Assembly: GCA_028719205.1 (NCBI GenBank)
Contig: JAQUKH010000028.1
Coordinates: forward strand, 1-33,708
Reading direction: 5' to 3'
DNA: 33,708 bases
Origin: a bacterium
GTDB lineage: Bacteria; JACRDZ01; JAQUKH01
A program made the translations under genes and the position numbers. Shown here piece after piece: positions 5,845 through 23,508 of this stretch. Under the pieces are notes generated by a model. The model was not told the origin of the DNA, searched no databases, and saw only the letters and a list, made by a program, of their open reading frames with translations. Numbering within the stretch: position 1 is the stretch's first letter; every line of letters starts with the position of its first letter.

Positions 5845-7758
5845 ATGGACAACGAAATAAGCCTGTTTACGGATTATGATATTCATCTTTTTAAAGAAGG
5901 CAATCATTTTACCATTTATGAAAAATTGGGTTCGCATCTGATGAAGGTAAATGGTGTTGAAGGAGCCTATTTCGCGTTATGGGCGCCTAACGCTGTGAAA
6001 GTTTTTGTTATCGGTGATTTTAACGCGTGGAATACCAACGCGAATCTGATGTCCTTAAGAAAAGACGGATCCGGTATCTGGGAAATTTTTATACCGAATG
6101 TGGTAAAAGGCGCTGTATATAAATATCATATTGTTTCCAAATACCGTAATTATAAAGTCAATAAAGGAGACCCTTACGCGTTTTACTGGGAAGTGCCTTC
6201 AAAGACCGCGTCGCGTGTCTGGGATCTGGATTACAAATGGAATGATGCGTCATGGATGAAAGACAGGATCCATCACAATAGTTTAAACGCGCCTATTTCG
6301 ATCTATGAAGTTCACCTTGGTTCATGGAGAAGGGTCCCTGAAGAAAAAAACCGGTTTTTAACCTACCGTGAAATGGCGACTATTTTAACTGATTATATTA
6401 AGGCAATGGGATTCACGCATGTCGAGTTTTTACCTGTTATGGAACATCCGCTTTACCGTTCATGGGGGTATCAGACCGTCGGATATTTCGCGCCAACGAG
6501 CCGTTACGGCACACCGCAGGATTTCATGTTCCTTGTTGATTATCTGCATCAGAATAATATTGCCGTAATACTGGATTGGGTGCCGTCGCATTTTCCGTCG
6601 GATGAACACGGGCTTTCATATTTTGACGGGACGCATCTTTATGAACATGAAGACCGGCGGAAAGGTTTTCATCCGGATTGGAAGACCCATATTTTTAATT
6701 ATGGAAGAGGAGAGGTTTGGAATTTTCTTATCAGTAACGCGTTATTCTGGCTGAAGAATTATCATATTGACGGGATCAGAGTGGACGCGGTAGCGTCGAT
6801 GCTGTATCTTGATTATTCACGCAAAGAAGGCGAGTGGATCCCGAATAAATACGGGGGCAGGGAGAACATCGAAGCGATAGATTTTATCAAGCGGTTCAAT
6901 GAGGTTATTTACGGTAATGTAGAAGGGGTCCAGACTTTCGCGGAAGAATCAACGGCTTGGGGTATGGTATCGCGCCCTGTGCATGTCGGCGGATTGGGCT
7001 TCGGGATGAAGTGGAACATGGGCTGGATGCACGATACGCTTGAATATTTTAAGAAAGATCCGCTTCACCGGAAGCATCACCAGAACGATATCACATTCAG
7101 TATGTGGTATGCCTTTACCGAGAATTTTCTGCTTCCGTTTTCTCACGATGAGGTAGTTCACGGAAAGGGTTCGCTTTTTGGAAAAATGTCCGGAATAGAC
7201 ACCTGGCAGAAATTCGCGAATTTAAGGCTTTTGTTCGGATTTATGTATATGCATCCCGGCAAGAAACTTTTGTTTATGGGTGATGAGATCGCCCAGTGGA
7301 AGGAATGGGATGAGGCGCACAGCCTGGAATGGGATGTCCTTAAATATCCCGATCACCAGGGGATCAGGATGTGGGTCCGCGATCTTAATTATTTTTACAG
7401 GAATGAACCTGCGATGTATGAACTTGATTTTGAACTTGCCGGTTTTAAATGGGTGGATTTCCATGATGTGAATAACAGCATATTAAGTTTCTTGAGAATG
7501 GGGAAAACCACTGACGATAAAATACTCGTGATCTGTAATTTTACGCCTGTCATCCGGCATGATTACAAAGTCGGAGTGCCGGAGGATGGATTCTGGAAAG
7601 AGGTATTGAACAGCGACGCGAAATGTTACGGAGGCAGTAACCAGGGAAATATGGGGGGCGTTGAGGCGGTTGAATTCAATATGAATAATATGGATCATTC
7701 CATTTCCGTAACCCTGCCGCCGCTGGGGGTTGTGGTATTTAAAAAAGAGGCTGAATAA
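5845..7758 (+). CDS. glgB: 1,4-alpha-glucan branching enzyme GlgB
   Basis: Cytoplasmic enzyme that cuts alpha-1,4 chains and reattaches them in alpha-1,6 linkage during glycogen synthesis. At 637 residues it has the usual bacterial length. Residues about 35-120 are the N-terminal CBM48 domain ([20 protein letters not shown]), followed by the GH13 barrel and a C-terminal all-beta domain ending [10 protein letters not shown]. The catalytic triad is visible: nucleophile D314 in GIRVDAV, acid/base E367 in TFAEES, and D435 in SHDEVVHGK. It is transcribed alone, divergently from the radical SAM locus, from a promoter that leaves almost no leader. The next glucan genes resume at 12580 after the chaperone-usher block. 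Identification is firm. Confidence 0.97.
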
Positions 7759-8059: not shown

Positions 8060-8647
8060 ATGAAAAAAAGTATATTATTACTTGCAGCTTTTACGTTTTT
8101 GGTGGTATGTAATTCCTTTGCCGTGGCAGATATGACCGATAACGCGGCAGCCCATGTTTTTTTAAATATAGTTCCAAACATTGCTGTAACAGCTACTGAT
8201 GCTAATGTGGCAGCCCAAAGCTTACAGACAGGAGCAGTGCTGGTTCCTATTTCCTTCAGAGTTGATGCTAATACGGAAGCAGTTGATCTGTCTGTATTAG
8301 TTACTAATCTCTATAAAGGGAATGATCCAGCCGGAACCGAAGTGGCTCCAATTCTTCCTGCCGGTGGAGGCGTGCAAATTGACCCGGATAATGCTAACGA
8401 AATGGGCGGTGGTGACGGTTTTGCTGAGTTCGTTACAGGCGGCAGTTACACAAATGAAAAGGGAACTTTTGAGGGCATGCAAACTCAGGAAGTTATATTT
8501 GAAAGCTCTCAAAATGGCCATTTCAGCCAGAATGTCGAAGTTATTCCTTCATGGAGTAATGAAGACAATGAAAAACCTGTAGGCCAATACAGTGGTTATG
8601 TTATACTGTATAGTGCGGTTGTTGGTGCTTCACAGCCAGGGTATTAA
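8060..8647 (+). CDS. Secreted pilin-like structural subunit of the chaperone-usher operon
   Basis: A 195-residue protein with a clear signal peptide (residues 1-23, LLLAAFTFLVVCNSFAVA then DMTDN). The mature part is acidic, has alternating beta-strand character and no cysteine, so it lacks the disulfide of classical FimA-type pilins. The family is not one I recognise from sequence alone. The role is inferred from position: it is the first gene, with the best ribosome-binding site (AAAGGAG six bases before ATG), directly upstream of a PapD-like chaperone and an usher, as expected for a major fibre subunit needed in excess. It is enclosed by the 14-bp inverted repeat and preceded by the leader with terminator. 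The C-terminal region (YSGYVILYSAVVGAS) has the alternating hydrophobic pattern expected of a chaperone-bound donor or G strand. Confidence 0.65.
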   Translation: MKKSILLLAAFTFLVVCNSFAVADMTDNAAAHVFLNIVPNIAVTATDANVAAQSLQTGAVLVPISFRVDANTEAVDLSVLVTNLYKGNDPAGTEVAPILPAGGGVQIDPDNANEMGGGDGFAEFVTGGSYTNEKGTFEGMQTQEVIFESSQNGHFSQNVEVIPSWSNEDNEKPVGQYSGYVILYSAVVGASQPGY

Positions 8648-8678
8648 TTAACGTGTTTACCCTGGATAAGAACAGTGA

Positions 8679-8692
8679 TTAATGCCAATCTC
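8679..8692 (+). repeat. Right arm of 14-bp inverted repeat; overlaps a possible chaperone start
   Basis: TTAATGCCAATCTC, reverse complement of 7990-8003. It contains an ATG (8682-8684) in frame with the chaperone gene. In an mRNA covering both arms, pairing would hide this ATG. Confidence 0.85.
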
Positions 8693-8711
8693 TTTTTTAT
8701 CTGGATATATT

Positions 8712-9533
8712 ATGGAAATAATAACCTTAAAATATGCAATAAGATATTTAATGGTGTGTTTTTTTCTTTTGGTATTGGTCTTTGATGTAAAGGTTAAGGC
8801 GGCGTTAGTTATAAAACCCGCTTACATCATGCAGAAATTGACCCAGAAGCGTATTTCAGATGTCTTTTATATTAAAAATGTTGGGGATAAGGAGGAGCGG
8901 TACCGGGCTACCGCTATTCATTTTATAGTTGGTGATAAGGGTGGTTTACAGGTTATACCTTCTGATGAATATTCCCTGGCTCAATGGATAAAGTTTAATC
9001 CTACTGAATTTATCCTGCCTCCTAATACCAGCAGGATGATCCGGTATTCCATAATTCCACAGGGAAAATTGAAAGAACGGGAATATTGGGGTGCCATCCA
9101 GTTTGTTCCATTGAAAGGCCAGACAGTGACTACTAAAGGGAAGGAAGGCCAGGATATATCCCTGGAAGTTGTGAGTGTTATACTGGTGCCGATTTATGGC
9201 AAGGTTGAAGGGACTAAATTTTCCGGCGAACTTTCCGGCTTTGAGGCCAAACAGCAAAAGGATGACATTAACTTGCTGTTCCGCGTTAAAAATACTAACG
9301 AGGGTGTTTTGCGCTTGCCAGGCCTTTGCCAGATTGTGGATAGTAATAACAAGATAATAAAAGAAGTTGAAATAAAATCAATCGTAGTATTTCCTGGAAA
9401 AAATCGATTGATGAGTGTTTCTATCAAAGAAAAATTAACTTCAGGAAACTATACCGCAAGGGTAGTTCTCGATAATAAGGAAGAAAAAATTTATCTGACC
9501 GGTGAAGCTAGTTTTATATATGAAAGTAAATAA
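8712..9533 (+). CDS. Periplasmic fimbrial chaperone, PapD-like
   Basis: About 273 residues with a signal sequence of 30 residues (YLMVCFFLLVLVFDVKVKA). The mature N-terminal domain shows the PapD pattern: ALVIKPAYI at the first strand, a variable YRATAIHF strand, then FNPTEFILPPNTSRMIRYSI, equivalent to the conserved P-x-x-F-x-L-x-P-x-x-x-x-x-V-R segment with the arginine that anchors subunits. A second beta domain (about residues 150-255) follows. It would bind the subunit from 8060 in the periplasm, cap its incomplete Ig fold, and deliver it to the usher. Starts at 8682 and 8712 are both open. I use 8712 because the signal peptide then has normal length, though neither has a strong ribosome-binding site; the upstream ATG falls in the inverted repeat. 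It overlaps the usher start. Confidence 0.8.
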   Translation: MEIITLKYAIRYLMVCFFLLVLVFDVKVKAALVIKPAYIMQKLTQKRISDVFYIKNVGDKEERYRATAIHFIVGDKGGLQVIPSDEYSLAQWIKFNPTEFILPPNTSRMIRYSIIPQGKLKEREYWGAIQFVPLKGQTVTTKGKEGQDISLEVVSVILVPIYGKVEGTKFSGELSGFEAKQQKDDINLLFRVKNTNEGVLRLPGLCQIVDSNNKIIKEVEIKSIVVFPGKNRLMSVSIKEKLTSGNYTARVVLDNKEEKIYLTGEASFIYESK

Positions 9534-12500
9534 AACCGTACTTATAATAATATTGAATGTTTTTTTTTATAATTTTTCCTTTTGCGCGGAAATCCAGCCT
9601 GCTCAATCTTCATCATGGGACTTTCCATCACAAAAAACCGTTTTACAAACAGCCTTGACGGGTTTTCACCTGCAGGGAAAAAAACGCAGCCAAAGTATTT
9701 ATATTTTTGATTTTGATATAGTGATAACTGAAGATAATTCCCGTTTGGTGCCGTTATTCCGTTTATTACGCCTATTGGGCGCTAACGGCCAGGTACAATA
9801 TGATAATCTGATAACCTTTCAAGTGGAAGCCGGGCCAAAAGTGAAACTGAATGCCGTTGAGCAATCCCTGCATGTGGAGAATAGAAATATTCCTGTAGAA
9901 ATCAAAATTGGGAATTCAGATGTTACCGGACGGGGTGAGATGTATGTTTCAGAAAAGATAATTAAAGAAGCCTTCGGTTTTGATTTTAACTGGAGCGAAG
10001 AAAATTATGAGTATACATTAAATACTGATAAATCCCTTGAATTGTTCAATCAAAACCGGCCGGGAGGGCAATCTCTGCTTTCCGCGAAAGTACAGGAACC
10101 TTCTTCATCGCTTTATGAAACTGAACCTGATGTTTATTCAGATACCTGCAGGTCTTTTTTTTCTTTTATTCAGCCTCAGTTGCGTGTCGATAGCCAATAT
10201 CACTTGGTCAGAGATGAACGTCATGTAGAAACTGTCGCGCATCCGGCTTTAACTTTATGGGGGAATTTTTCGTCCGGCATATACAGGATAAAATTGAGCC
10301 AGACTATCAATTATCCAAATGCGAAAATCCCAAGCATTATAAACTGGCTGGATGAAGGTGTATGGACCTCCAAGGAAGAAAATATGATCACAAAGGTTGG
10401 AGATACTAATTTCGGGTGCAGTGAACTGGTGGCTCCGGGGACAAGTGTTTTTGGAGCCAGCGTTAAATGGATCTCGCCGCAAAAAGAAAAGGATGTTAAA
10501 TATGACCGTTACCTTAAGCGACGAAGTATCGGGTATTTAAGCGAGGATAATTTTGAAGGGCTGGCTCAACTTGGTGCAACCGTAGAGCTATGGGTAAATA
10601 ACATTCTTATACAGACTAAAATTGTTGAAGAGCCGGCAATTGAAAGAGCCGGTTATGGTATTTACAGGTTTAATAGTGTTGGTTTGCTTGAAAAGGCCCT
10701 GAATGAGATAAAAATTGTAATTAAGCGTAAAGACGGAATGGTTGAAGAGTATTACAAGCAAATACTTGGGACTACCGCCCTCCTGCCGGCTGGAAGCTGG
10801 GCAATCCTCGGCGGAGCGGGAACCCGCCGCCAGAAAAATTTAACTGAAACTGTGACAGAAGGAGTTTTTTTTGCTTCACAAGTTAACTATGGTCTTACCA
10901 AGGCGGTAACTTTAGGATTAACCGTTGCGGCCCAGAATAAATTTGCCCTTCTTTTAGATACAACAGGAAGTGTTTCAAGATCACCGGAAAGTTATAATGT
11001 CGGCCAACAGGTCAATATACGTCTACTGGACAAGTTATTGCTGAAGGAAGAAGCAGCTAAGAGTATAAAAACTGCGGATGATACAAATGCCGGGGCTTAT
11101 AAGCTTGGGATAGAATATTACTTCAAAAAAATAAAATTGGAATCACAGTTATTTTCATACGCGCCGGGGTATATGAACGGATTAACTGATATAAGCGACC
11201 GGCGGGGATATTCAGCTTTTACCCGCTGGCCGTTATTAAAGAAACTGTCTATGAATTTAATGGGCCTGCGTGTTCATAATAATATTGATCATAGTGAAGA
11301 TTATACAAAAACAGAAGATATTGTCAGTTTAAGTTTAAGTTTTCCCGGTTTGATTCCAAAAACAGATATAAGATTAGGCACTTTTTATACAGATCTGGAT
11401 AATTTAACCGGAATGAATATTAGATCTATTACGCGTACATATATCGCTGATATGAATATCAATTTTACAAACGACCTGAACATGGAAGTCAGACACGTAT
11501 TTGGGGATAAGTCCGGCTTGCAGGAGACTGAGGATTTGGCTTATGGGTTGTCTGTCCCTGGCATTGATCAATATTTTTCCCGTGGAACCAGGGTCAGGAC
11601 AAGTTACAGTATAAATCCACGCAATGCCGTATCTTCCATGTACTGGAAAACAGACAGCCAGCGCCAGGCAGAAGTCTCTTATGAACATAAATACTATAAC
11701 AGTGAAGGTAAAAACACCTGGGATTCCCGTATTGATCTTGGTAAGATCATTAGTACCGGAAAGTTTTACAGCCATGGCAATATGGAATTCAAAATTGATG
11801 AATCCGGATATAACCGCGTCGGTTTGGAAGCGGATACAAAGAATAACGGCAAGGAATATTATTTTGGATTTTATTTTTCTTTAAATAATCTTTTCAGTAT
11901 TAGTGAAGGCAAATTTAAGAAAGTAACGCAGTTTGGTATTTCCCCTGAAATGGGAGGCGTAGAAGGTTTTGTATACCTGGATAAAGACGGTAATGGCCAT
12001 CGCGGAGCGGATGAGCCGGGATTACCAAATATACCCATTATGATGAACGGGCGCAGTTATGGAGAATCGGACCAGAACGGCAATTTTTTTATCTCTTGTA
12101 ATCCTAAAAAAGAATTTGTGACTGTGAGCCTGGACGAATATTCATTACCGGCCATATATATACCGACGCAGGGCAAACAGAAAGTATATTGGAAAGAAGG
12201 GATATTCAGCAAAGCAAACCTTGGATTATGTGTTACTAACGCGGTTTCCGGTGAAGTCAGTGCTTATAGCCTGGAAAACACTAAAAAAAGATTTCCCGGG
12301 TTACGTGTGATGCTGCTTATGGCTGATGACAAGAAAACCTTAATAAGAGACTCTGTCACAGGGTCTGACGGCAGTTTCTATATCGGAGAAATTAAACCGG
12401 GGAACTACATGCTGGATATAGATATTGATTCCGTGCCGGTTGAATATAAACCAATAGGTTTGCCCAGGGAATTAAACATTGTATCCGGTGCTGAACCGGG

Positions 12501-12543
12501 CGAACTTAAGGATTTTAATATTTTGTTGATAAAAAAGGAATAG
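9520..12543 (+). CDS. Outer-membrane usher-like protein with C-terminal beta-sandwich domains
   Basis: About 1007 residues, with a signal peptide (VLIIILNVFFYNFSFCA) starting at the ATG at 9520; a GTG at 9502 is in the same frame. An unusual N-terminal region (about 70-190) resembles copper-amine-oxidase-N-like repeats (LVPLFRLLRLLGANGQVQYD and GRGEMYVSEKIIKEAFGFDF). Then comes an usher-type barrel and plug: VGDTNFGCSELVAPGTSVFG, ATVELWVNNILI, YGIYRFNSVGLLEKA, ALLPAGSWAILGGAG, and many alternating strands to about residue 800. The last 200 residues hold two prealbumin/SdrD-like domains, one beginning EGFVYLDKDGNGHRGADEPG and one VTGSDGSFYIGEIKPGNYML. The protein would form the outer-membrane pore through which subunits are assembled into a surface fibre. 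The usher call is good; the terminal domain calls are by eye. Confidence 0.75.
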   Translation: MKVNKTVLIIILNVFFYNFSFCAEIQPAQSSSWDFPSQKTVLQTALTGFHLQGKKRSQSIYIFDFDIVITEDNSRLVPLFRLLRLLGANGQVQYDNLITFQVEAGPKVKLNAVEQSLHVENRNIPVEIKIGNSDVTGRGEMYVSEKIIKEAFGFDFNWSEENYEYTLNTDKSLELFNQNRPGGQSLLSAKVQEPSSSLYETEPDVYSDTCRSFFSFIQPQLRVDSQYHLVRDERHVETVAHPALTLWGNFSSGIYRIKLSQTINYPNAKIPSIINWLDEGVWTSKEENMITKVGDTNFGCSELVAPGTSVFGASVKWISPQKEKDVKYDRYLKRRSIGYLSEDNFEGLAQLGATVELWVNNILIQTKIVEEPAIERAGYGIYRFNSVGLLEKALNEIKIVIKRKDGMVEEYYKQILGTTALLPAGSWAILGGAGTRRQKNLTETVTEGVFFASQVNYGLTKAVTLGLTVAAQNKFALLLDTTGSVSRSPESYNVGQQVNIRLLDKLLLKEEAAKSIKTADDTNAGAYKLGIEYYFKKIKLESQLFSYAPGYMNGLTDISDRRGYSAFTRWPLLKKLSMNLMGLRVHNNIDHSEDYTKTEDIVSLSLSFPGLIPKTDIRLGTFYTDLDNLTGMNIRSITRTYIADMNINFTNDLNMEVRHVFGDKSGLQETEDLAYGLSVPGIDQYFSRGTRVRTSYSINPRNAVSSMYWKTDSQRQAEVSYEHKYYNSEGKNTWDSRIDLGKIISTGKFYSHGNMEFKIDESGYNRVGLEADTKNNGKEYYFGFYFSLNNLFSISEGKFKKVTQFGISPEMGGVEGFVYLDKDGNGHRGADEPGLPNIPIMMNGRSYGESDQNGNFFISCNPKKEFVTVSLDEYSLPAIYIPTQGKQKVYWKEGIFSKANLGLCVTNAVSGEVSAYSLENTKKRFPGLRVMLLMADDKKTLIRDSVTGSDGSFYIGEIKPGNYMLDIDIDSVPVEYKPIGLPRELNIVSGAEPGELKDFNILLIKKE

Positions 12544-12579: not shown

Positions 12580-14079
12580 ATGTCAAATCGAAAAAGCGGA
12601 ATACTTTTACATATCAGTTCGCTTCCCTCGCCCTATGGAATAGGTGATTTTGGTCCGCAAGCCTATAAATTTGCCGATTTCCTTGGCAAAACCAAACAAG
12701 GTTTTTGGCAGGTATTGCCTTTTAATCCTACTGAAGTTGAATTCGGTAATTGTCCTTATAACAGTCTTTCTGTCTTCGCGGGGAACACGCTTTTTATCAG
12801 CCCTGACCTATTGGCCAGGGATGGATTTTTAGACAAAAAGGATCTTAAGCCTAAACCTGTATTCCCTAAAGAAAAATGTGATTATGCCGGCGTTACATCC
12901 TATAAACAAAAAATATTTTATAAAGCGTATGAAAACTTTAAAGGGAAAAAAGAAGGATTAAAAGAATATAAAGAATTTTGTTTAAAGAATTCCGAATGGC
13001 TGGAGGATTTTTCTATTTTTGTGGTATTAAAAAAAGTTTTTGAAGGGAAAGCCTGGTGCGATTGGCCGGAAGGACTTAAGAACAGGGAACAAAGTTCTTT
13101 GGAGGATATCAGAAAAAAATATGGCAGCGAAATTGAGCGCGAAAAATTTCTACAGTATGTTTTCCATAAGCAATGGTATATGTTAAAAAAATATTGCGAC
13201 AAAAACGGGATAAAAATAATAGGAGATATCCCTATTTATGTTTGTTATGATAGCGTTGATGTATGGAAAAATCCTGAATTATTTAATCTTGATGGAAATA
13301 AAAAACCGGTTACGGTCTCAGGTGTTCCCCCGGATTATTTTAGTTCTACCGGACAGTTATGGGGAAATCCGGTGTATAGATGGGACGCCCTGAAAGAAAC
13401 AAATTATAAATGGTGGATTGACCGGATGGCGCGTGATCTTGAAATTTTTGATATTATGAGAATAGACCACTTCCGCGGTTTTGTAGGGTACTGGGAAGTT
13501 CCTGCCAGTGAAATTACGGCAGTGAACGGCCGATGGGTTCAGGCGAACGCCGTGGATTTTTTTAATACGGTAGCCTGCAAGTTTCCAGGTATGCCTTTTA
13601 TTGCCGAGGATCTGGGTATTATAACGGATGATGTCAGGGAGGTTATAAAAAAATTTAATTTTCCGGGCATGAGAGTAATGCTTTTCGCGTTTGGCGATGA
13701 TAATAACGACAATCCATACCTTCCTCGTAATTTTATAGAGAATTGTGTTGTATATACAGGTACTCATGATAACAATACGGTAAGAGGCTGGTTTGAGAAC
13801 GAATCTAGTGCTAAAGAGAAAGAACGATTGTTCCGTTATTTAGGACACGAGGTTGATTCACGTAACGCGCATATGGGATTTATTAAGCTTGCGATGGATT
13901 CGGTCGCGAATACGGTTGTTTTTCCAATGCAGGATATTTTAGGATTAGGAAGTTACGCGCGAATGAATATACCGTCAACTACATGCGGCAATTGGGAATG
14001 GCGGTTATTGCCGGGACAAATTACCAAGAATGTTTCTGATAAACTTTTAAAAATAACAGAGACTTATAAAAGGGGATAG
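12580..14079 (+). CDS. malQ: 4-alpha-glucanotransferase (amylomaltase)
   Basis: Cytoplasmic GH77 enzyme that moves alpha-1,4-glucan segments between chains, used in glycogen and maltodextrin turnover. The 499-residue length is normal. Conserved landmarks run in order: SLPSPYGIGDFG, WQVLPFNPTE, IGDIPIYV, GVPPDYFSSTGQLWGNPVY, nucleophile D296 in MRIDHFRG, acid/base E343 in FIAEDLG, and D397 in GTHDNNT. It begins 36 bases after the usher stop, behind its own predicted promoter, with no ribosome-binding site. galT starts eight bases after its stop and glgA follows, so malQ-galT-glgA form one glucan operon. Confidence 0.97.
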   Translation: MSNRKSGILLHISSLPSPYGIGDFGPQAYKFADFLGKTKQGFWQVLPFNPTEVEFGNCPYNSLSVFAGNTLFISPDLLARDGFLDKKDLKPKPVFPKEKCDYAGVTSYKQKIFYKAYENFKGKKEGLKEYKEFCLKNSEWLEDFSIFVVLKKVFEGKAWCDWPEGLKNREQSSLEDIRKKYGSEIEREKFLQYVFHKQWYMLKKYCDKNGIKIIGDIPIYVCYDSVDVWKNPELFNLDGNKKPVTVSGVPPDYFSSTGQLWGNPVYRWDALKETNYKWWIDRMARDLEIFDIMRIDHFRGFVGYWEVPASEITAVNGRWVQANAVDFFNTVACKFPGMPFIAEDLGIITDDVREVIKKFNFPGMRVMLFAFGDDNNDNPYLPRNFIENCVVYTGTHDNNTVRGWFENESSAKEKERLFRYLGHEVDSRNAHMGFIKLAMDSVANTVVFPMQDILGLGSYARMNIPSTTCGNWEWRLLPGQITKNVSDKLLKITETYKRG

Positions 14080-14087
14080 GAGAAAAT

Positions 14088-15107
14088 ATGGGTGAACTAC
14101 GCAAAGATCCGATTTTGGAACGATGGGTAATTATAGCGAGCGAACGGTCAAAAAGGCCGGGAGGATTTTTTAAAGCACCAAGAATAACTGAAAAAACAGA
14201 TCCTGATAAATGCCCTTTCTGTCCGGGACATGAGTCAATGACGCCGCCCGAGATTTTCAGCCTGCGCGATCCAAAAGCAAATACCTGGAAAACGCGGGTT
14301 ATTCCAAACAAGTATCTGGCTTTAAGTTTGGATAATCCTTTTGTTAAAAAAGGCAAAGGGATGTATGACATGATGACAAATTTCGGCGCGCATGAAGTTT
14401 TGATCGAAACACCTTTCCATGAAAAAGAGGCAAAGGACCAGTCAAAAGAAGAAATAATTACCTGGCTTTCCGTGCTTCAACAGCGGACGGAAGACCTGAC
14501 AAAAGACCAGAGATTCAGGCATATTTTAATATTTAAGAATAAAGGTAAATCGGCGGGCGCTTCATTGTCGCATCCGCATCACCAGATCATGGCCACCCCG
14601 ATAACGCCCAAACGGGTAAGAGAAGAATTAAACGGATCATTTCATTATTATAAAATGAAAGAAAGATGCATCTTTTGTGATATTATCAATCAGGAACAAT
14701 CCGATGGCGAAAGGATCGTTTATGAAAACGAAGCATATATAAGTTTTTGCCCTTACGCGTCAAGATTTCCTTACGAGATCTGGATCCTGCCGAAAACGCA
14801 TGAGATCGATTTTTACGCGAAAAGTGTTAAAGACACTATGCCTTTATTAGCAGAATTGCTTAAGATTGTCTTGCAGAAATTGTCAGCTGTTCTGGGTGAT
14901 CCCGACTATAACTATATTTTCCATAATTCGCCCAACCGCATTCCGCGGAGGGATTATTGGCATACTGTAAAAGAAGATTATCATTGGCATATAGAACTTT
15001 TACCGAAATTGACAACAATTGCCGGTTTTGAATGGGGCACGGGATTTTTTATAAATCCGCTGGCGCCGGAAGACGCGGCTAAAGAGTTGAGGGAAGTAAA
15101 AATATAA
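14088..15107 (+). CDS. galT: Galactose-1-phosphate uridylyltransferase family protein
   Basis: A 339-residue member of the GalT branch of the HIT superfamily. The active-site motif is H162-P-H164-H165-Q166, with H164 the expected uridylylated nucleophile. A CPFCPGHE zinc-site motif near residue 43 and YHWHIELLPK near the C-terminus are both present. In the Leloir pathway GalT exchanges UMP between UDP-glucose and galactose-1-phosphate. Here it lies between malQ and glgA with no galK or galE, so it may instead serve to interconvert glucose-1-phosphate and nucleotide-glucose for glucan synthesis; that is an inference. AGGAGA lies a few bases before the ATG. The classical motif has Gly where this protein has H165, a difference also seen in bacterial homologues of broad substrate use. 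Confidence 0.92.
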   Translation: MGELRKDPILERWVIIASERSKRPGGFFKAPRITEKTDPDKCPFCPGHESMTPPEIFSLRDPKANTWKTRVIPNKYLALSLDNPFVKKGKGMYDMMTNFGAHEVLIETPFHEKEAKDQSKEEIITWLSVLQQRTEDLTKDQRFRHILIFKNKGKSAGASLSHPHHQIMATPITPKRVREELNGSFHYYKMKERCIFCDIINQEQSDGERIVYENEAYISFCPYASRFPYEIWILPKTHEIDFYAKSVKDTMPLLAELLKIVLQKLSAVLGDPDYNYIFHNSPNRIPRRDYWHTVKEDYHWHIELLPKLTTIAGFEWGTGFFINPLAPEDAAKELREVKI

Positions 15108-15123: not shown

Positions 15124-16551
15124 ATGAATATACTCTTTGTTTCTTCTGAAGTTTTTCCGTTTGCGAAGACCGGCGGCCTTGCCGATGTGTCAGGCGCCCT
15201 GCCGGACGCGTTAAATTCCTTAAAGCATAAATGCAGTATAATAATGCCGATGTATCGCAAGGTTATGGAAAATGGATTTTATCCTCCCGTTTTAAAGAAA
15301 AATTTGAAAATTAGTCTTGGACAGAGAGAATATATATTTGATCTTCTATTCCTTAAGCACAGAAATACTGATGTATATTTTATTGATAATAAAGAATTTT
15401 TTAACAGAGACGGCCTTTACGGCACACCTGAAGCCGATCATCCGGATAACGCCCTGCGTTTCGCGTTCTTCGCGAAGGCTATTCTTTCCGTGCTCAATGA
15501 TATCGGGAAAATAGATGTAATACATTGCAACGATTGGCAATCCGGGTTATTGCCGCTTTATTTAAAAATAAATAAAGATCCAATCACTAAAATAAAAACT
15601 GTTTTTACTATCCATAATATGGCGTATCAGGGGCTTTTTGGACCGGATGTAATACCTTCAATAGGCCTTACCTGGGATTTTTTAACGATGGATAAACTGG
15701 AATTTTACGGCAAAATAAGTTACATGAAGGCGGGAATTATTTATTCAGACGCTGTTACTACTGTAAGCAAGGGATACGCAAAGGAGATCCTGACAAGTGA
15801 GTTTGGATGCGGCCTTGACGGTTTATTGCAGACAAGGGCTTCATCCATTTACGGGATATTGAACGGAGTGGATTATTCTGAGTGGAATCCGAAAACAGAT
15901 ATATATATAGCGGGAAAATATAATGAGAAAGACCTTACTGAAAAAGTCGAATGTAAAAAGAATCTCCTGAGGTTATTTAAACTGCCTTTTGATGACAAAA
16001 AACCGGTTATTGGATTGATAACACGCCTTGCCGCTCAAAAAGGTTTAGACCTTGTAGCGGAGCGGATAGAAGATATCCTTTCATTAAATACATATCTGGT
16101 CCTTTTAGGTACAGGTGATGAAAAATATAATAATATGTTCAAAAATATTGCTGAAAAATATAAGGGCAAGGCCGGAATTAAAATAGGTTTTGACAACGCG
16201 CTTGCCCATCAAATAGAGGCCGGGAGCGATATGTTCCTTATGCCGTCGAGGTATGAACCTTGCGGCCTGAACCAGATGTACAGCTTAAAATACGGAACGG
16301 TTCCTGTAGTAAGGGCGACAGGCGGGCTGGATGACACTATTTCTGATTTTAACCCCGCGACAAAAAAAGGCAACGGTTTCAAATTTTCTGAAGCATCAGG
16401 TGATGCCTTAGTCGCGGTTCTCAAAAGGGCCGTTGAAGTTTATAAAAATAATAAAAATTGGAAAGTTCTGCAGCAAAACGGCATGAACTGTGATTTTTCG
16501 TGGGAGAATTCCGCGAAAGAATACATCGAATTATATAAGAAAATCTCTTAA
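15124..16551 (+). CDS. glgA: Glycogen synthase GlgA (GT5)
   Basis: Cytoplasmic enzyme that extends alpha-1,4-glucan chains from ADP-glucose (or UDP-glucose). It has 475 residues, the normal length. The donor-binding motif KTGGL is at residues 15-19 (FAKTGGLADVSGALP), followed by HCNDWQSGLLP, FTIHNMAYQG, NGVDYSEWNP, GLITRLAAQKGLDL, and RYEPCGLNQMYSLKYGTVPV with RATGGLDDT near the C-terminus. The start has a strong ribosome-binding site (GGGAGAGG). It lies 16 bases after galT and is followed within 14 bases by a radical SAM gene. Confidence 0.97.
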   Translation: MNILFVSSEVFPFAKTGGLADVSGALPDALNSLKHKCSIIMPMYRKVMENGFYPPVLKKNLKISLGQREYIFDLLFLKHRNTDVYFIDNKEFFNRDGLYGTPEADHPDNALRFAFFAKAILSVLNDIGKIDVIHCNDWQSGLLPLYLKINKDPITKIKTVFTIHNMAYQGLFGPDVIPSIGLTWDFLTMDKLEFYGKISYMKAGIIYSDAVTTVSKGYAKEILTSEFGCGLDGLLQTRASSIYGILNGVDYSEWNPKTDIYIAGKYNEKDLTEKVECKKNLLRLFKLPFDDKKPVIGLITRLAAQKGLDLVAERIEDILSLNTYLVLLGTGDEKYNNMFKNIAEKYKGKAGIKIGFDNALAHQIEAGSDMFLMPSRYEPCGLNQMYSLKYGTVPVVRATGGLDDTISDFNPATKKGNGFKFSEASGDALVAVLKRAVEVYKNNKNWKVLQQNGMNCDFSWENSAKEYIELYKKIS

Positions 16552-19522: not shown

Positions 19523-19756
19523 GTGGAAAAAAATTATACACTTGATTGTTATGGCCTGCTTTGTCCGATGCCGGTCATTAAGATCGCCCAAATGATCAAA
19601 AAAATAAAAAAAGGGGAAGTTCTGGAATTGATCTCAACGGATGAGGGTGTGAAAGAAGATATTCCGGCGTGGTGCAGGGCTACCGGAAATGAATTCTTAG
19701 GGATAGAAGAAGAAAAAGGAATTTTTAAGGTCTATATAAAAAAGATGAAGGATTAA
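19523..19756 (+). CDS. tusA: TusA-family sulfurtransferase
   Basis: A 77-residue protein with the full TusA signature: a short first strand, then LLCPMPVIK with active Cys14, a helix (MIKKIKKGEVLELISTD), and a final strand ending KVYIKK. Length is normal. It carries a persulfide on Cys14 and passes it to acceptor proteins. Translation begins at GTG (19523), with AAGGA eight bases ahead. As the third gene of the operon it would receive sulfur from the NifS-like or DsrE2 protein. Unlike this protein, the TusA-like domain fused to PstB at the start of the window lacks the cysteine. Possible users nearby are FdhD/FdhA, which need sulfur on the metal cofactor, but that link is an inference. Confidence 0.93.
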   Translation: MEKNYTLDCYGLLCPMPVIKIAQMIKKIKKGEVLELISTDEGVKEDIPAWCRATGNEFLGIEEEKGIFKVYIKKMKD

Positions 19757-19759
19757 AGC

Positions 19760-19788
19760 TTGACAAAGTTAACTAAATATGAAAGAAT
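19760..19788 (+). promoter_or_regulatory. Possible promoter of the HTH-CBM48 operon
   Basis: TTGACA (19760-19765) is followed after 17 bases by AAGAAT (19783-19788), a four-of-six match. It begins just after the tusA stop and would give a leader of about 65 bases that contains the inverted repeat at 19809-19847. Confidence 0.4.
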
Positions 19789-19808
19789 AAAATTTTCTAA
19801 AAGGTAAC

Positions 19809-19847
19809 AAAATGTTTATCAATTATTTGGATTGGGATTAACATTTT
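19809..19847 (+). promoter_or_regulatory. Inverted repeat in the leader of the HTH-CBM48 gene; candidate operator
   Basis: AAAATGTT (19809-19816) and AACATTTT (19840-19847) are perfect 8-bp arms, 31 bases start to start, about three helical turns. The repeat lies between the predicted promoter and the ribosome-binding site of a gene that encodes a DNA-binding protein, where an autoregulatory site would be expected. AT-rich composition makes a chance match possible. Confidence 0.4.
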
Positions 19848-19860
19848 AAGAGGGGAAATT

Positions 19861-20382
19861 ATGGGGATTGATATGATCGGTTTGAATTTAAGAAGAGTTC
19901 GAGAACAAAATGGATTTACACAGGAAGCAATCGCGAAAAAACTTGGGGTATCAAGACAAGCTGTTTGTATGTGGGAATCAGGAAAAAGGGAAGTAAGTGT
20001 ATCGAAGCTTATAGAGGTCGCTGAAATTTTTAATATGAGCATTGATGAGATAATAAGGCCAGGGAAAGTAAGACCAAATAATAATAATTATCCGGTTGTA
20101 AAAAATAAAAAAGAAAAAGCGGACCCTAAAACCTGTTTTGAATTAGACGCGCCTTACGCTAATGAGGTTTTATTAGTGGGTGATTTTAATTCCTGGAACG
20201 CGGGGGGGATACTGTTAAAGAAAAATGAAAAGGGATTATGGAAAATTGAATTAGCGCTTAATCCCGGAAAATATGAATATAAGTTTATAGTTGACGGAAA
20301 ATGGCAGAATGATCCTGCTAATACTGATACAGCCGTAAATTCATACGGCACAACTAATTCGGTAAAGGAAATAACTAAATGA
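19861..20382 (+). CDS. XRE helix-turn-helix protein fused to a glycogen-binding CBM48 (AMPK-beta-type) domain
   Basis: A 173-residue two-domain protein. Residues about 8-65 are an XRE/Cro-type helix-turn-helix (LRRVREQNGFTQEAIAKKLG, SRQAVCMWESGKREVS, then LIEVAEIFNMSIDEII). A basic, Asn-rich linker (66-88) leads to a CBM48/AMPK-beta glycogen-binding domain (about 90-172). The residues that contact glycogen in AMPK-beta are all present: W112 in GDFNSW, K141 in YEYKF, W148 in DGKW, T164 and N166 in YGTTN. The simplest reading is a transcription regulator whose DNA binding responds to glycogen or maltodextrin. AGAGGGG precedes the ATG. Its stop overlaps the start of the GT4 gene (ATGA), so it is co-translated with a glucan-synthesis enzyme. 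I know of no characterised regulator with this architecture. The domain calls are strong; the sensing role is an inference. Confidence 0.9.
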   Translation: MGIDMIGLNLRRVREQNGFTQEAIAKKLGVSRQAVCMWESGKREVSVSKLIEVAEIFNMSIDEIIRPGKVRPNNNNYPVVKNKKEKADPKTCFELDAPYANEVLLVGDFNSWNAGGILLKKNEKGLWKIELALNPGKYEYKFIVDGKWQNDPANTDTAVNSYGTTNSVKEITK

Positions 20383-21539
20383 GAATTGCCCTGTTTTCCT
20401 GGGAATCTTTACATTCAATTGCAATTGGAGGCATAGCGGTACATGTCACGGAACTTGCCTGCGCCATGCAGCGCAAGGGGCATGAAGTTCATATTTTTAC
20501 ACGTATGGGCCGCCGCGATCACAGGCTTTATGAATGTATCGATGGGGTTCACTATCATCGATGCCCTTATCCGCATCATCCTGATTTTATTGAAGAAGTT
20601 AACAATATGTGCCGTTCATTTGTTCATTATTTTTTCCAGACAGAGGATTATATCGGCCATTTTGATATTGTTCACTGCCATGACTGGCTGACGACAAACG
20701 CGCTGGTATGGATAAAAAAAGGCAGGCCGCGAAAGTCTATTATGACAATACATTCGACTGAATTCGGGAGGTGCGGTAATAAGTTTCACAAGGGAAAATC
20801 AGACATAATAAGGCATCTTGAGTGGTATGGGACTTATGAAGCAAGTAAGGTAATAGCTGTTTCCAATTTTTTAAAGAAAGAAATAATACAGATCTATAGC
20901 CTGCCGGAAGATAAGATCCATGTCATTTATAATGGAATACATTATAAAGCTTATGACGGCTGGATAGACCCGGGCGCTGTAAAAAGGATATATGGCATAG
21001 GTCCTTTAGATCCCGTGGTTTTGTTTGTGGGAAGAATAGTTTATCAAAAGGGTGTGGACCTTTTAGTAGAGGCTATTCCTCATGTTTTAAAATTTCATAA
21101 AAACGCGAAATTTGTTTTTGTCGGTGATGGAGAAATGCGCCATCAGATCGAATCAAGGACGCATCAGTTAGGGATAAATCACGCGACAAGGTTTTTGGGC
21201 CAGGCCGGTGGAAGTAAATTAATTGATCTTTATAAAGCCTGTGAATGTGTATGCATTCCAAGCAGGAATGAGCCGTTTGGGATCGTTCTACTTGAGGCCT
21301 GGAGCGCAGGGAAGCCCGCTGTAGCCAGTATAAATGGCGGGCCGGGGGAAATAATATGGCACGATGTAAACGGGTTAAAAATTAATGACAATGTAAATTC
21401 TGTGGCATGGGGTATCGGAACATTATTGTCAGATTTTGATCATGCCAGGTGGATGGGACGAAACGGCCGGATCGCGGTTGAAACGGCATTTTCGTGGGAT
21501 GTAATTGCTGACGTAACACTTTCCGTTTATGAGAGCTGA
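20379..21539 (+). CDS. GT4 glycosyltransferase, glycogen-synthase-like
   Basis: A 386-residue GT-B enzyme of family GT4. The N-terminal domain has GGIAVHVTELACAMQRKGHEVHIFTR and HCHDWLT; the C-terminal domain has VLFVGRIVYQKGVDLLVEA and the E298-x7-E306 motif (NEPFGIVLLE) that binds the donor nucleotide sugar. Overall resemblance is to the GT4 enzymes that make maltose-1-phosphate or glycogen (GlgM-like, archaeal glycogen synthases), which agrees with its place between the HTH-CBM48 gene and a DUF4912 gene. It starts with a four-base overlap (ATGA), so translation is coupled. It would be a second chain-synthesising enzyme in addition to GlgA. Exact donor and acceptor cannot be read from sequence. 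Confidence 0.87.
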   Translation: MRIALFSWESLHSIAIGGIAVHVTELACAMQRKGHEVHIFTRMGRRDHRLYECIDGVHYHRCPYPHHPDFIEEVNNMCRSFVHYFFQTEDYIGHFDIVHCHDWLTTNALVWIKKGRPRKSIMTIHSTEFGRCGNKFHKGKSDIIRHLEWYGTYEASKVIAVSNFLKKEIIQIYSLPEDKIHVIYNGIHYKAYDGWIDPGAVKRIYGIGPLDPVVLFVGRIVYQKGVDLLVEAIPHVLKFHKNAKFVFVGDGEMRHQIESRTHQLGINHATRFLGQAGGSKLIDLYKACECVCIPSRNEPFGIVLLEAWSAGKPAVASINGGPGEIIWHDVNGLKINDNVNSVAWGIGTLLSDFDHARWMGRNGRIAVETAFSWDVIADVTLSVYES

Positions 21540-21547
21540 GGATATTT

Positions 21548-22573
21548 ATGCAGAAAAAAAATTTTGTTGACAACTTAGACCTGCCTGTGGATTATAATCA
21601 TACGAATCTTACTCTTATCCCAAGAGATCCATATTGGGTATTTGCTTATTGGGAAATATCTCCGTCTGTCCTTGAAACGCTTAAAAAAAAGACCGGCAAT
21701 AAATTGCCTAAAATATCATCATATATAATCAGGATGCATGATATAACTTCAGTGGATTTTAATGGAAAGAACGCGAATTCATCATTTGATATTAATATTG
21801 CCCCGCATAAGGGCAGCTCATATATAAACCTGCCGTGTGATAATGTAAATTATTGCGCTGAGTTAGGAATAACCGAACCGGATGGAAAATTTTTTCCGTT
21901 GACAATGTCAAACTATGCCGCTGCTCCAAGGCTAAGTTCATCGCCAAGGTCTGATCTTATATGGATGGATTCGAAAAACAGAAAAAGACAGCCTTTTGTT
22001 GATCCAAAAGAAGAAGAAAAAAATAAAATTTCAAACATTAAATTCGAAGACCTGCCAAAAAAAGCTAAAAGGATGTTCCTGACGGAAGACGATATAAGGG
22101 CTTATTATTCAAGGATCATGTCTTTGTATACCCGAAAAAATAAAAAGCCGGCGCATATGCCGGAAAAGGTATCAGCCGGAAAATATAATAAATCTCTAAA
22201 AAATAATTGCGCGGCAAATAATAAAGATTTAAACGATATTATTTTAAGTGAAGGATTTAATAATAATTTTTCAGGTTCATCAGGGATGGGCTCAAGTGAA
22301 TTAAAAGGCGGCGCGAGCGAAAGGGAAGAAAAAGGAAGAAAGTTCTTCTTTGAGATAGGAACGGAACTGATCGTTTTCGGCCGTACTGAACCGGACGCGG
22401 AAGTGCTGATGAATGGTAAAAAAATAGACCTTAGAAATGACGGGACATTCAGCATGAGGTTTGCCTTTCCCGATGGAAAGATCCCGCTTGATTTTATAGC
22501 AACGTCAAATGATAAAGTTGATAGACGTACCATAATGACTTCCGCCGAACGGGCAAAAACCAGATCCAGTTAA
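21548..22573 (+). CDS. DUF4912 domain protein
   Basis: A 341-residue protein of unknown function. Residues about 15-145 match my recollection of DUF4912 (LTLIPRDPYWVFAYWEI, later YCAELGITEPDGKFFPL and SNYAAAPRLSSSP). A charged, Asn/Ser-rich middle (about 150-255) follows. The last 80 residues form a compact beta domain (ELIVFGRTEPDAEVLMNGKK, LRNDGTFSMRFAFPDGKIPL) that often ends such proteins. There is no signal peptide or membrane segment. GAGG lies seven bases before the ATG and the gene begins eight bases after the GT4 stop. DUF4912 genes are, as far as I recall, often found beside GT4 or GH57 glucan enzymes. The two beta domains resemble carbohydrate- or protein-binding modules, so a scaffold on the glucan particle is possible but unproven. 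Confidence 0.85.
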   Translation: MQKKNFVDNLDLPVDYNHTNLTLIPRDPYWVFAYWEISPSVLETLKKKTGNKLPKISSYIIRMHDITSVDFNGKNANSSFDINIAPHKGSSYINLPCDNVNYCAELGITEPDGKFFPLTMSNYAAAPRLSSSPRSDLIWMDSKNRKRQPFVDPKEEEKNKISNIKFEDLPKKAKRMFLTEDDIRAYYSRIMSLYTRKNKKPAHMPEKVSAGKYNKSLKNNCAANNKDLNDIILSEGFNNNFSGSSGMGSSELKGGASEREEKGRKFFFEIGTELIVFGRTEPDAEVLMNGKKIDLRNDGTFSMRFAFPDGKIPLDFIATSNDKVDRRTIMTSAERAKTRSS

Positions 22574-22590: not shown

Positions 22591-23322
22591 ATGAAACTTA
22601 AAAAAAAATTATTTTTTATAGTTTTATTTATATTTAGATTAAACTCATTAGTGCTGGGAATTGATGAGGCGGAGCTTTCGAAGTTACGGAAAGCAATGGT
22701 TGAGACCCAGATAAAGGCTGAAGGGATAAAAGATGAACGTGTGCTTCAGGCGATGTTAAAAGTAAAAAGGCATTTATTCGTACCGGAGGAATATAAAAAC
22801 ACGGCTTATATTAACGGCCCTTTGCCGATCGGAGAAGGCCAGACAATTTCCCAGCCGTATATTGTCGCTTTAATGACCGAGCTTCTGGAATTGAAAGGTA
22901 ATGAAAAGGTTTTAGAAATAGGCACAGGTTCAGGTTATCAGGCCGCAATATTGGGTGAGCTGGCGAAAGAAGTTTACACAATTGAAATTCTTGATATTTT
23001 GGGAAGACGGGCTGAAAAACTTTTAAACGAATTGAAATATAAAAATATTAAAGTAAAAATAGGGGATGGTTATTTAGGCTGGCTTGAATACGCGCCTTTT
23101 GACGCGATAATCGTTACAGCCGCTCCTGAAGAGATCCCAAAGGCATTGATAGAACAACTGGCTGAAGGCGGGAAAATGGTAATTCCTGTTGAAGATCAAT
23201 TCCCGATCGACCGTTATTCTCAAAAATTGAAATTGGTTAGAAAAATAAACGGGAAACCGGTAGTTAAAGATATTATCGCGGTAAGGTTTGTTCCGATGAT
23301 AAAGGGATTAGAAAAAAAATAG
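22591..23322 (+). CDS. pcm: Secreted protein-L-isoaspartate O-methyltransferase family protein
   Basis: A 243-residue PCMT-family enzyme that methylates isoaspartyl residues to start repair of damaged proteins. Conserved parts: ERVLQAMLKVKRHLFVPEEY, LPIGEGQTISQPYIVALMTE, motif I EIGTGSGYQAA, and FDAIIVTAAPEEIP with LIEQLAEGGKMVIPV. An N-terminal hydrophobic segment (about 5-22) looks like a signal peptide, so the enzyme may work outside the cytoplasm, where the methyl donor SAM would not be expected; it may instead be an anchor. The start codon at 22591 has only a weak ribosome-binding site (AAGAAA). It follows DUF4912 by 17 bases and is the last gene of that operon; no terminator is visible. 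Confidence 0.9.
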   Translation: MKLKKKLFFIVLFIFRLNSLVLGIDEAELSKLRKAMVETQIKAEGIKDERVLQAMLKVKRHLFVPEEYKNTAYINGPLPIGEGQTISQPYIVALMTELLELKGNEKVLEIGTGSGYQAAILGELAKEVYTIEILDILGRRAEKLLNELKYKNIKVKIGDGYLGWLEYAPFDAIIVTAAPEEIPKALIEQLAEGGKMVIPVEDQFPIDRYSQKLKLVRKINGKPVVKDIIAVRFVPMIKGLEKK

Positions 23323-23378: not shown

Positions 23379-23403
23379 TATAACTCAAATTAAAAATTTT
23401 ATA

Positions 23404-23508
23404 CAACTGACGGCATAGGATGGTTTTACCATCGGGGAGTATGAAATAGAGAAAAGTATTTAGTCGACCGTCTGGGCATTCTAAAATTAGATACTCAGAC
23501 GGTTTTTT
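23404..23508 (+). promoter_or_regulatory. ZTP (pfl) riboswitch with terminator platform
   Basis: The leader shows the core of the ZTP/ZMP riboswitch: ACTGACGG (23406-23413), a hairpin GATGGT/ACCATC (23419-23433), CGGGGAG right after it, a variable linker, then GACCGTCTGGGCA (23466-23478) as the 3' half, with CCG at 23468-23470 able to form the pseudoknot with CGG at 23411-23413. The 3' core is shared with a terminator: ACCGTCTG (23467-23474) pairs with CAGACGGT (23496-23503), followed by T6. Ligand binding should keep the 3' core out of the terminator, so high ZMP/ZTP (low 10-formyl-tetrahydrofolate) turns on the downstream formate dehydrogenase operon. About 45 bases separate it from the fdhA start. 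The gap 23323-23553 is otherwise empty. Confidence 0.85.

Follow-up and report, generated by a model that had tools for sequence, protein, structure and literature searches.

How bacteria gauge their glycogen content is poorly known; metabolites and global regulators are the usual explanation of its control. For another storage polymer a direct reader has been described: PhaR of Ralstonia eutropha binds both DNA and polyhydroxybutyrate and represses its own gene and that of a phasin until the polymer relieves the repression (PMC3570403). In the RsgI anti-sigma-I factors of Clostridium thermocellum, a carbohydrate-binding module (CBM) fused to a transcription regulator senses polysaccharide (PMC4711584). 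The glycogen-binding domain of the AMPK β subunit acts as a glycogen sensor and contacts the glucan through W100, K126, W133, L146 and T148 (PMC2642990).

Here we describe a bacterial protein in which a helix-turn-helix (HTH) domain is joined to an AMPK-type CBM48. It is encoded in a stretch of 33,708 nucleotides (contig JAQUKH010000028.1, positions 1 to 33,708), which is called the window below. Since 173 residues carry both a putative polymer sensor and a DNA reader, with a predicted 19-base operator, the question of glycogen sensing is simple to test in this system.

Domain organization and glucan-contact residues

The protein is encoded on the forward strand by a single intact frame, from the ATG at 19861 to the TGA at 20382. 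Residues 10–64 match the Pfam family HTH_3 (59.4 bits, cut-off 23) and residues 100–172 match AMPK1_CBM, the profile of AMPK-type CBM48 (53.6 bits, cut-off 26.8), both well beyond the curated thresholds; the two matches far exceed chance. In an AlphaFold2 model built from nine orthologs (mean pLDDT 77.8, pTM 0.47), a helical N-terminal domain and a β-sandwich are both confidently predicted and are joined by a floppy or disordered linker (residues 69–87), with the CBM48 domain extending over approximately residues 90–172. The pTM value means that the model leaves the placement of the two domains relative to each other undefined. The best Foldseek match of the sandwich is the AMPK β1 glycogen-binding domain (1z0m; target TM 0.91, 1.2 Å), and the closest solved sequences to the C-terminal half are likewise AMPK β glycogen-binding domains. 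The frame, the Pfam matches and the fold all agree with the original prediction, made from the DNA letters, of an N-terminal HTH and a C-terminal CBM48 in one 173-residue protein. No homology to PhaR was seen: the Pfam hits and the best 25 NCBIfam hits include no PHA- or PHB-regulator family.

The alignment maps the five AMPK contact residues, in the order given above, to W112, K141, W148, Y162 and T164. The same prediction held that every contact residue is kept, which is correct for W112, K141, W148 and T164 but not for the L146 position, which was missing from its list and is occupied by Y162. T164 is replaced by S, A or V in several orthologs. W112, K141 and W148 are invariant in all 11 HTH-CBM fusions and in all 29 solo CBM48 proteins, and N166 is kept in every protein, fusion or solo, where the position is present. 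In the branching enzyme encoded in the window, the first Trp and the Lys are present, whereas the second Trp and the G-T-x-N loop are missing. Sugar binding is not universal among the CBM48 domains of glucan enzymes; here, the invariance of W112, K141, W148 and N166 argues for retained glucan binding. On this pattern of conservation, the CBM48 of the protein is quite likely to bind α-glucan.

Genomic surroundings and transcription unit

The next gene on the forward strand encodes a GT4 glycosyltransferase of 386 residues (20379..21539; Pfam Glycos_transf_1 and Glyco_transf_4); orthologous loci likewise have it after the CBM48 gene. Its start overlaps the stop of the HTH-CBM gene by 4 bases (ATGA), in line with the overlap reported earlier. 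Against TIGR02149, the nearest glycogen-synthase model (Corynebacterium-type), the GT4 protein scores 163.8 bits, below the cut-off of 302.4. A DUF4912 gene (21548..22573, forward strand), which is kept beside the GT4 gene in relatives, follows after 8 bases in the same probable operon. A protein-L-isoaspartate methyltransferase gene (pcm; 22591..23322, forward strand) starts 17 bases further on and possibly belongs to the same operon; the DUF4912-pcm order also occurs in a congener (G003). The transcription unit probably comprises the HTH-CBM, GT4 and DUF4912 genes and perhaps pcm.

Genes for the branching enzyme GlgB (5845..7758), MalQ (12580..14079), a GalT-type uridylyltransferase (14088..15107) and the glycogen synthase GlgA (15124..16551) are found upstream on the forward strand, and all four products pass their NCBIfam cut-offs. 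They lie 3.3 to 14 kb from the HTH-CBM gene with other genes intervening, so that the HTH-CBM unit is probably a separate one inside a glucan region. The placement of the protein among glgB, malQ, galT and glgA in the original prediction thus stands as to proximity and gene identity, but these genes probably lie outside its transcription unit, and four kinds of gene (radical SAM, IscS, DsrE and TusA) separate glgA from the HTH-CBM gene.

Other features of the region are recorded here. Three genes between glgB and malQ (8060–12543) have no confident Pfam match and by eye resemble a secreted subunit, a chaperone and an usher (1013 aa). A ZMP/ZTP riboswitch (23393–23484; 57.9 bits, gathering threshold 39) precedes a molybdopterin gene of the formate-dehydrogenase type at 23554; folate and purine genes are the more familiar setting for riboswitches of this class. 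DUF4912 is a constant neighbor of the GT4 protein and in relatives is also found beside a GH57 branching enzyme. In the literature searched, which covered few subscription journals, one paper mentions DUF4912 and none was found on its function; it may have a role in α-glucan metabolism.

Distribution of the HTH-CBM48 fusion

The original prediction proposed to look for HTH_3 plus AMPK1_CBM architectures and for glucan genes beside them in other lineages, and both recur. The two domains occur together in two genomes of the window's genus (its own, G000, and the congener G003) and in 9 genomes out of 384 from the Omnitrophota, the phylum to which G004 (recorded as Candidatus Omnitrophota) belongs. 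In the resulting 11 proteins, of which those aligned are 41–69% identical to the window protein, the HTH recognition helix is invariant (SRQAxCxWE). GT4 and DUF4912 genes are directly downstream in all nine loci with a continuing contig (G000, G003, G004, G081, G163, G185, G186, G329 and G384); G197 and G224 were left out of this count because their contigs end inside the gene. Neighbors unrelated to glucans, which the original prediction named as a refutation, were seen in none of the nine. In the Omnitrophota loci examined with Pfam (L067 and L054), a GH57 branching-enzyme-type protein comes next. Judged by these comparisons, the fusion is conserved.

CBM48 is far from restricted to the fusion. 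A three-sequence profile matches in 229 of 285 Omnitrophota genomes, mostly to the CBM48 half alone, and in the loci read from G049, G101, G202, G020, G132, G215, G173, G095, G043, G222 and G192 an HTH-less CBM48 protein stands beside the same GT4 (386–388 residues) and DUF4912. In G163, an HTH-CBM protein and a stand-alone CBM48 protein are encoded in tandem ahead of the GT4. The many loci of this kind indicate that CBM48 is the regular partner of this GT4, to which the HTH is an optional addition. In one other phylum, to which G289 and G290 belong and in which solo CBM48 is present, up to 395 genomes yielded no HTH fusion. No plasmid record has a match covering 80% of the query, the matches listed being to the HTH only, and viral contigs gave a single weak HTH match. 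The GT4 and CBM48 trees are poorly resolved and the HTH-bearing rows do not form a clade, so that we draw no conclusion on a single origin of the fusion.

Second, stand-alone CBM48 proteins are encoded in the window's genome (L060:9049-9333) and in the congener (L063:9243-10722), the latter adjoining a second GT4 that is 71% identical. The operator element described below is absent at both of these genes.

A promoter element that tracks the HTH domain

Upstream of the HTH-CBM gene, the forward strand carries a promoter of the form TTGACA-N17-AAGAAT with an extended TG (19760..19788), a layout shared by the nine HTH-CBM genes first compared; the end of the TusA gene, at 19756, precedes the -35 box by four bases. 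The spacer between -35 and -10 contains a predicted 19-base operator, AAGTTAACTAAATATGAAA (19766..19784, forward strand), which scores 14.4 bits in group-held-out scoring, whereas none of 29 HTH-less upstream regions exceeds 8.5. The second-best element match, GGTAACAAAATGTTTAT (19803..19819, forward strand), is weak and is a possible second operator; as a dyad it does not rise above shuffles in the window's genome.

Most HTH-CBM promoters contain the element AAGTTAACAnAATGTGGCA between -35 and -10. The first nine genes have TTGACA-N17-N6 upstream with the spacer AAGTTAACAnAATGTGn conserved in most of them, which gives the element TTGACA-AAGTTAACAnAATGTGn. For held-out scoring, the matrix for each site was built without that site and its close relatives; only 2–11 of 708,944 positions then score as high as the held-out site, and nearly all of these are other elements. 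The core element reaches 9.5–26.7 bits in 12 HTH-bearing loci, scored with held-out matrices, versus 0.1–8.5 bits in 29 HTH-less CBM48 loci, scored with the full matrix (Mann-Whitney p 3e-7, relatedness not corrected for), and even the lowest HTH-bearing operon is above all 29 HTH-less genes. When -35 and -10 are masked, the spacer still sets most sites apart; the exceptions are G163 and G224, which have weaker spacer matches and their best held-out core at a second site downstream of the promoter, and G197, which has a poor spacer element (negative spacer-only score) and a near-perfect GTTAAC-N5-GTTAAC nearby. This symmetric dyad was rejected as a universal operator, since G081 and G197 are the only genomes in which it clearly exceeds shuffles.

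Two orthologs came to light after the matrix was built. In G384 the element is almost unchanged (TTGACAAAGTTAACAGAGTGTGGCATACT, 34.7 bits); in G329 the consensus core AAGTTAACAAAATGTGGCA is just upstream of the gene, away from the -35 box. The nearest HTH relatives in the first 285 Omnitrophota genomes are seven HTH-CBM proteins and one protein (G201, locus L016) that has the helix SRQAVCMWE and a receiver (response-regulator) domain in place of CBM48. The gene for the HTH-receiver protein comes after a sigma-54 gene in its operon, just upstream of which the element is found (TTGACAATGTTAACAGAATGTGGCA). The HTH that ranks next, from G271, differs in its helix (VAQSTVGMWE), and no element match was found in that genome. 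The presence of the element with the HTH, the receiver protein included, and its low scores at HTH-less CBM48 loci indicate that it tracks the HTH rather than CBM48 or GT4. The element is most likely the operator of this HTH, and by the same comparison the protein very probably binds its own promoter. At L016:156-5504, the sigma-54 gene, the HTH-receiver gene and a PAS histidine kinase gene form one probable operon.

Outside coding DNA, the window's genome has a single copy of the full element, at 19760. A wider regulon was sought there and rejected: other core matches (133+135) are about as numerous as those of a reversed control pattern (119+132), and the three best are in coding sequence. 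As the genome yielded no further gene under such an operator, the switch appears local and autogenous. A three-mismatch copy of the element is found within the GT4 coding sequence (20590–20611); weak matches at the corresponding place in L012, L055 and L058 probably come from conserved protein sequence (EVNNMCRS).

A proposed switch and its alternatives

The reading we favor, and rate as slightly more probable than all others taken together, is that the protein locally regulates its own HTH-CBM/GT4/DUF4912 operon, probably as a repressor, with α-glucan as the signal. An HTH dimer on the predicted operator would block RNA polymerase, and the glucan-free protein would be the repressing form. The CBM48 would hold chains or branches of glycogen or long maltodextrin via W112, K141, W148 and N166, and a large glycogen particle would then pull the protein off the promoter, so that the operon is made when the polymer is present. 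Repression is the usual effect of an operator between -35 and -10, and we consider a repressing role likely; that glucan binding alters DNA binding is reasonably probable. The parts, their conservation and the pairing of element and helix are supported by comparison, from which we infer DNA binding, glucan binding, their coupling and the sign of control. The pairing of CBM48 and GT4 without the HTH in most Omnitrophota counts against the reading, as CBM48 may mainly serve GT4. So do the replacement of the AMPK leucine, the variation at T164, the poor spacer element of G197 and the weaker spacer matches of G163 and G224.

In one alternative, the protein is an autoregulator whose CBM48 binds the partner GT4 (or DUF4912), so that the level of free enzyme rather than polymer sets control. 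CBM48 adjoins GT4 with or without the HTH, it can mediate protein contacts elsewhere, and the AMPK leucine is a tyrosine (Y162) here; however, the invariance of W112, K141 and W148 extends to the many solo proteins that are not beside a GT4, and we regard this explanation as unlikely. A little less probable is a repressor of the ordinary small-ligand kind in which only the sensor domain is unusual and the ligand is a soluble maltodextrin or branched oligosaccharide rather than the polymer. The AMPK CBM48 also binds maltohexaose, maltoheptaose and cyclodextrin, but linear oligosaccharides displace it from glycogen only above 1 mM, which favors a multivalent polymer (PMC2642990). The nearby malQ and glgB genes fit a soluble ligand, although sequence alone cannot separate polymer from oligosaccharide.

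The sign of the response could also be reversed. In the original prediction glycogen would give product feedback on synthesis; as a negative feedback by co-repression, this would mean that glucan-bound protein binds DNA better. The parts list is identical and the operon is probably synthetic (GT4 here, a GH57 branching enzyme in relatives), but attachment to a large glycogen particle would be expected to take a repressor away from DNA, and PhaR, the best known storage-polymer sensor, is derepressed by its polymer (PMC3570403). We favor derepression, the way in which PhaR works, and rate it at least as likely as product feedback; co-repression as the whole explanation is unlikely, slightly more so than a soluble ligand. 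Least probable by far is that the element is merely a conserved strong promoter of the CBM-GT4-DUF4912 operon, or the site of another regulator. It does overlap the -35/-10 spacer in most loci; yet it is absent from HTH-less CBM48-GT4 operons, lies upstream of the unrelated HTH-receiver operon with the same helix, has moved off the -35 box in G329, and is still recovered at most sites by spacer-only scoring.

Comparison with known systems

The protein shares its HTH family with the XRE/HTH_3 autoregulators and, as predicted here, an operator over its own promoter; it differs in having CBM48 as the sensor, for which we know of no report in that family. Stand-alone CBM48 proteins (~90–130 aa) have the same CBM48 and often the same GT4-DUF4912 neighbors, but are without the HTH and the operator element. 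The AMPK β domain has the same fold and the counterparts of W100, K126, W133 and T148 are kept, whereas AMPK β is eukaryotic and signals via a kinase, and the protein described here has Y162 for L146 and is fused to a DNA-binding domain. RsgI likewise combines a carbohydrate-binding module with a transcription regulator; unlike the soluble, HTH-bearing window protein, it is a membrane protein that reads an extracellular polymer and acts via a sigma factor.

A second CBM48-bearing transcription regulator is encoded in the same genome (L061:7379-8759, contig C10) and likewise in G001 (L072:4021-5433). At both loci the gene after that of an ECF sigma factor encodes a zf-HC2 protein that has a single hydrophobic segment, probably transmembrane, and ends in an AMPK-type CBM48. 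This protein may be an RsgI-like anti-sigma factor that senses glucan outside the membrane.

No paper on an HTH-CBM48 regulator was found in the literature searched, which covered few subscription journals. The original statement that no characterized DNA-binding protein reads the polymer itself is borne out there for glycogen, but PhaR reads polyhydroxybutyrate (PMC3570403). If the favored reading is true, the protein would offer synthetic biology a small switch that responds to glycogen, and it would be a bacterial counterpart of glycogen sensing by AMPK. We give an even chance to its being the first DNA-binding regulator family that senses glycogen itself via an AMPK-type CBM48 and acts from a defined operator, with modular HTHs that share one operator code and carry different sensors (CBM48 or receiver). 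The closest counterpart would be PhaR, with unrelated domains, another polymer and binding that is experimental there and inferred here, and with the same proposed logic: an autorepressor of itself and a polymer-related gene, released by the storage polymer.
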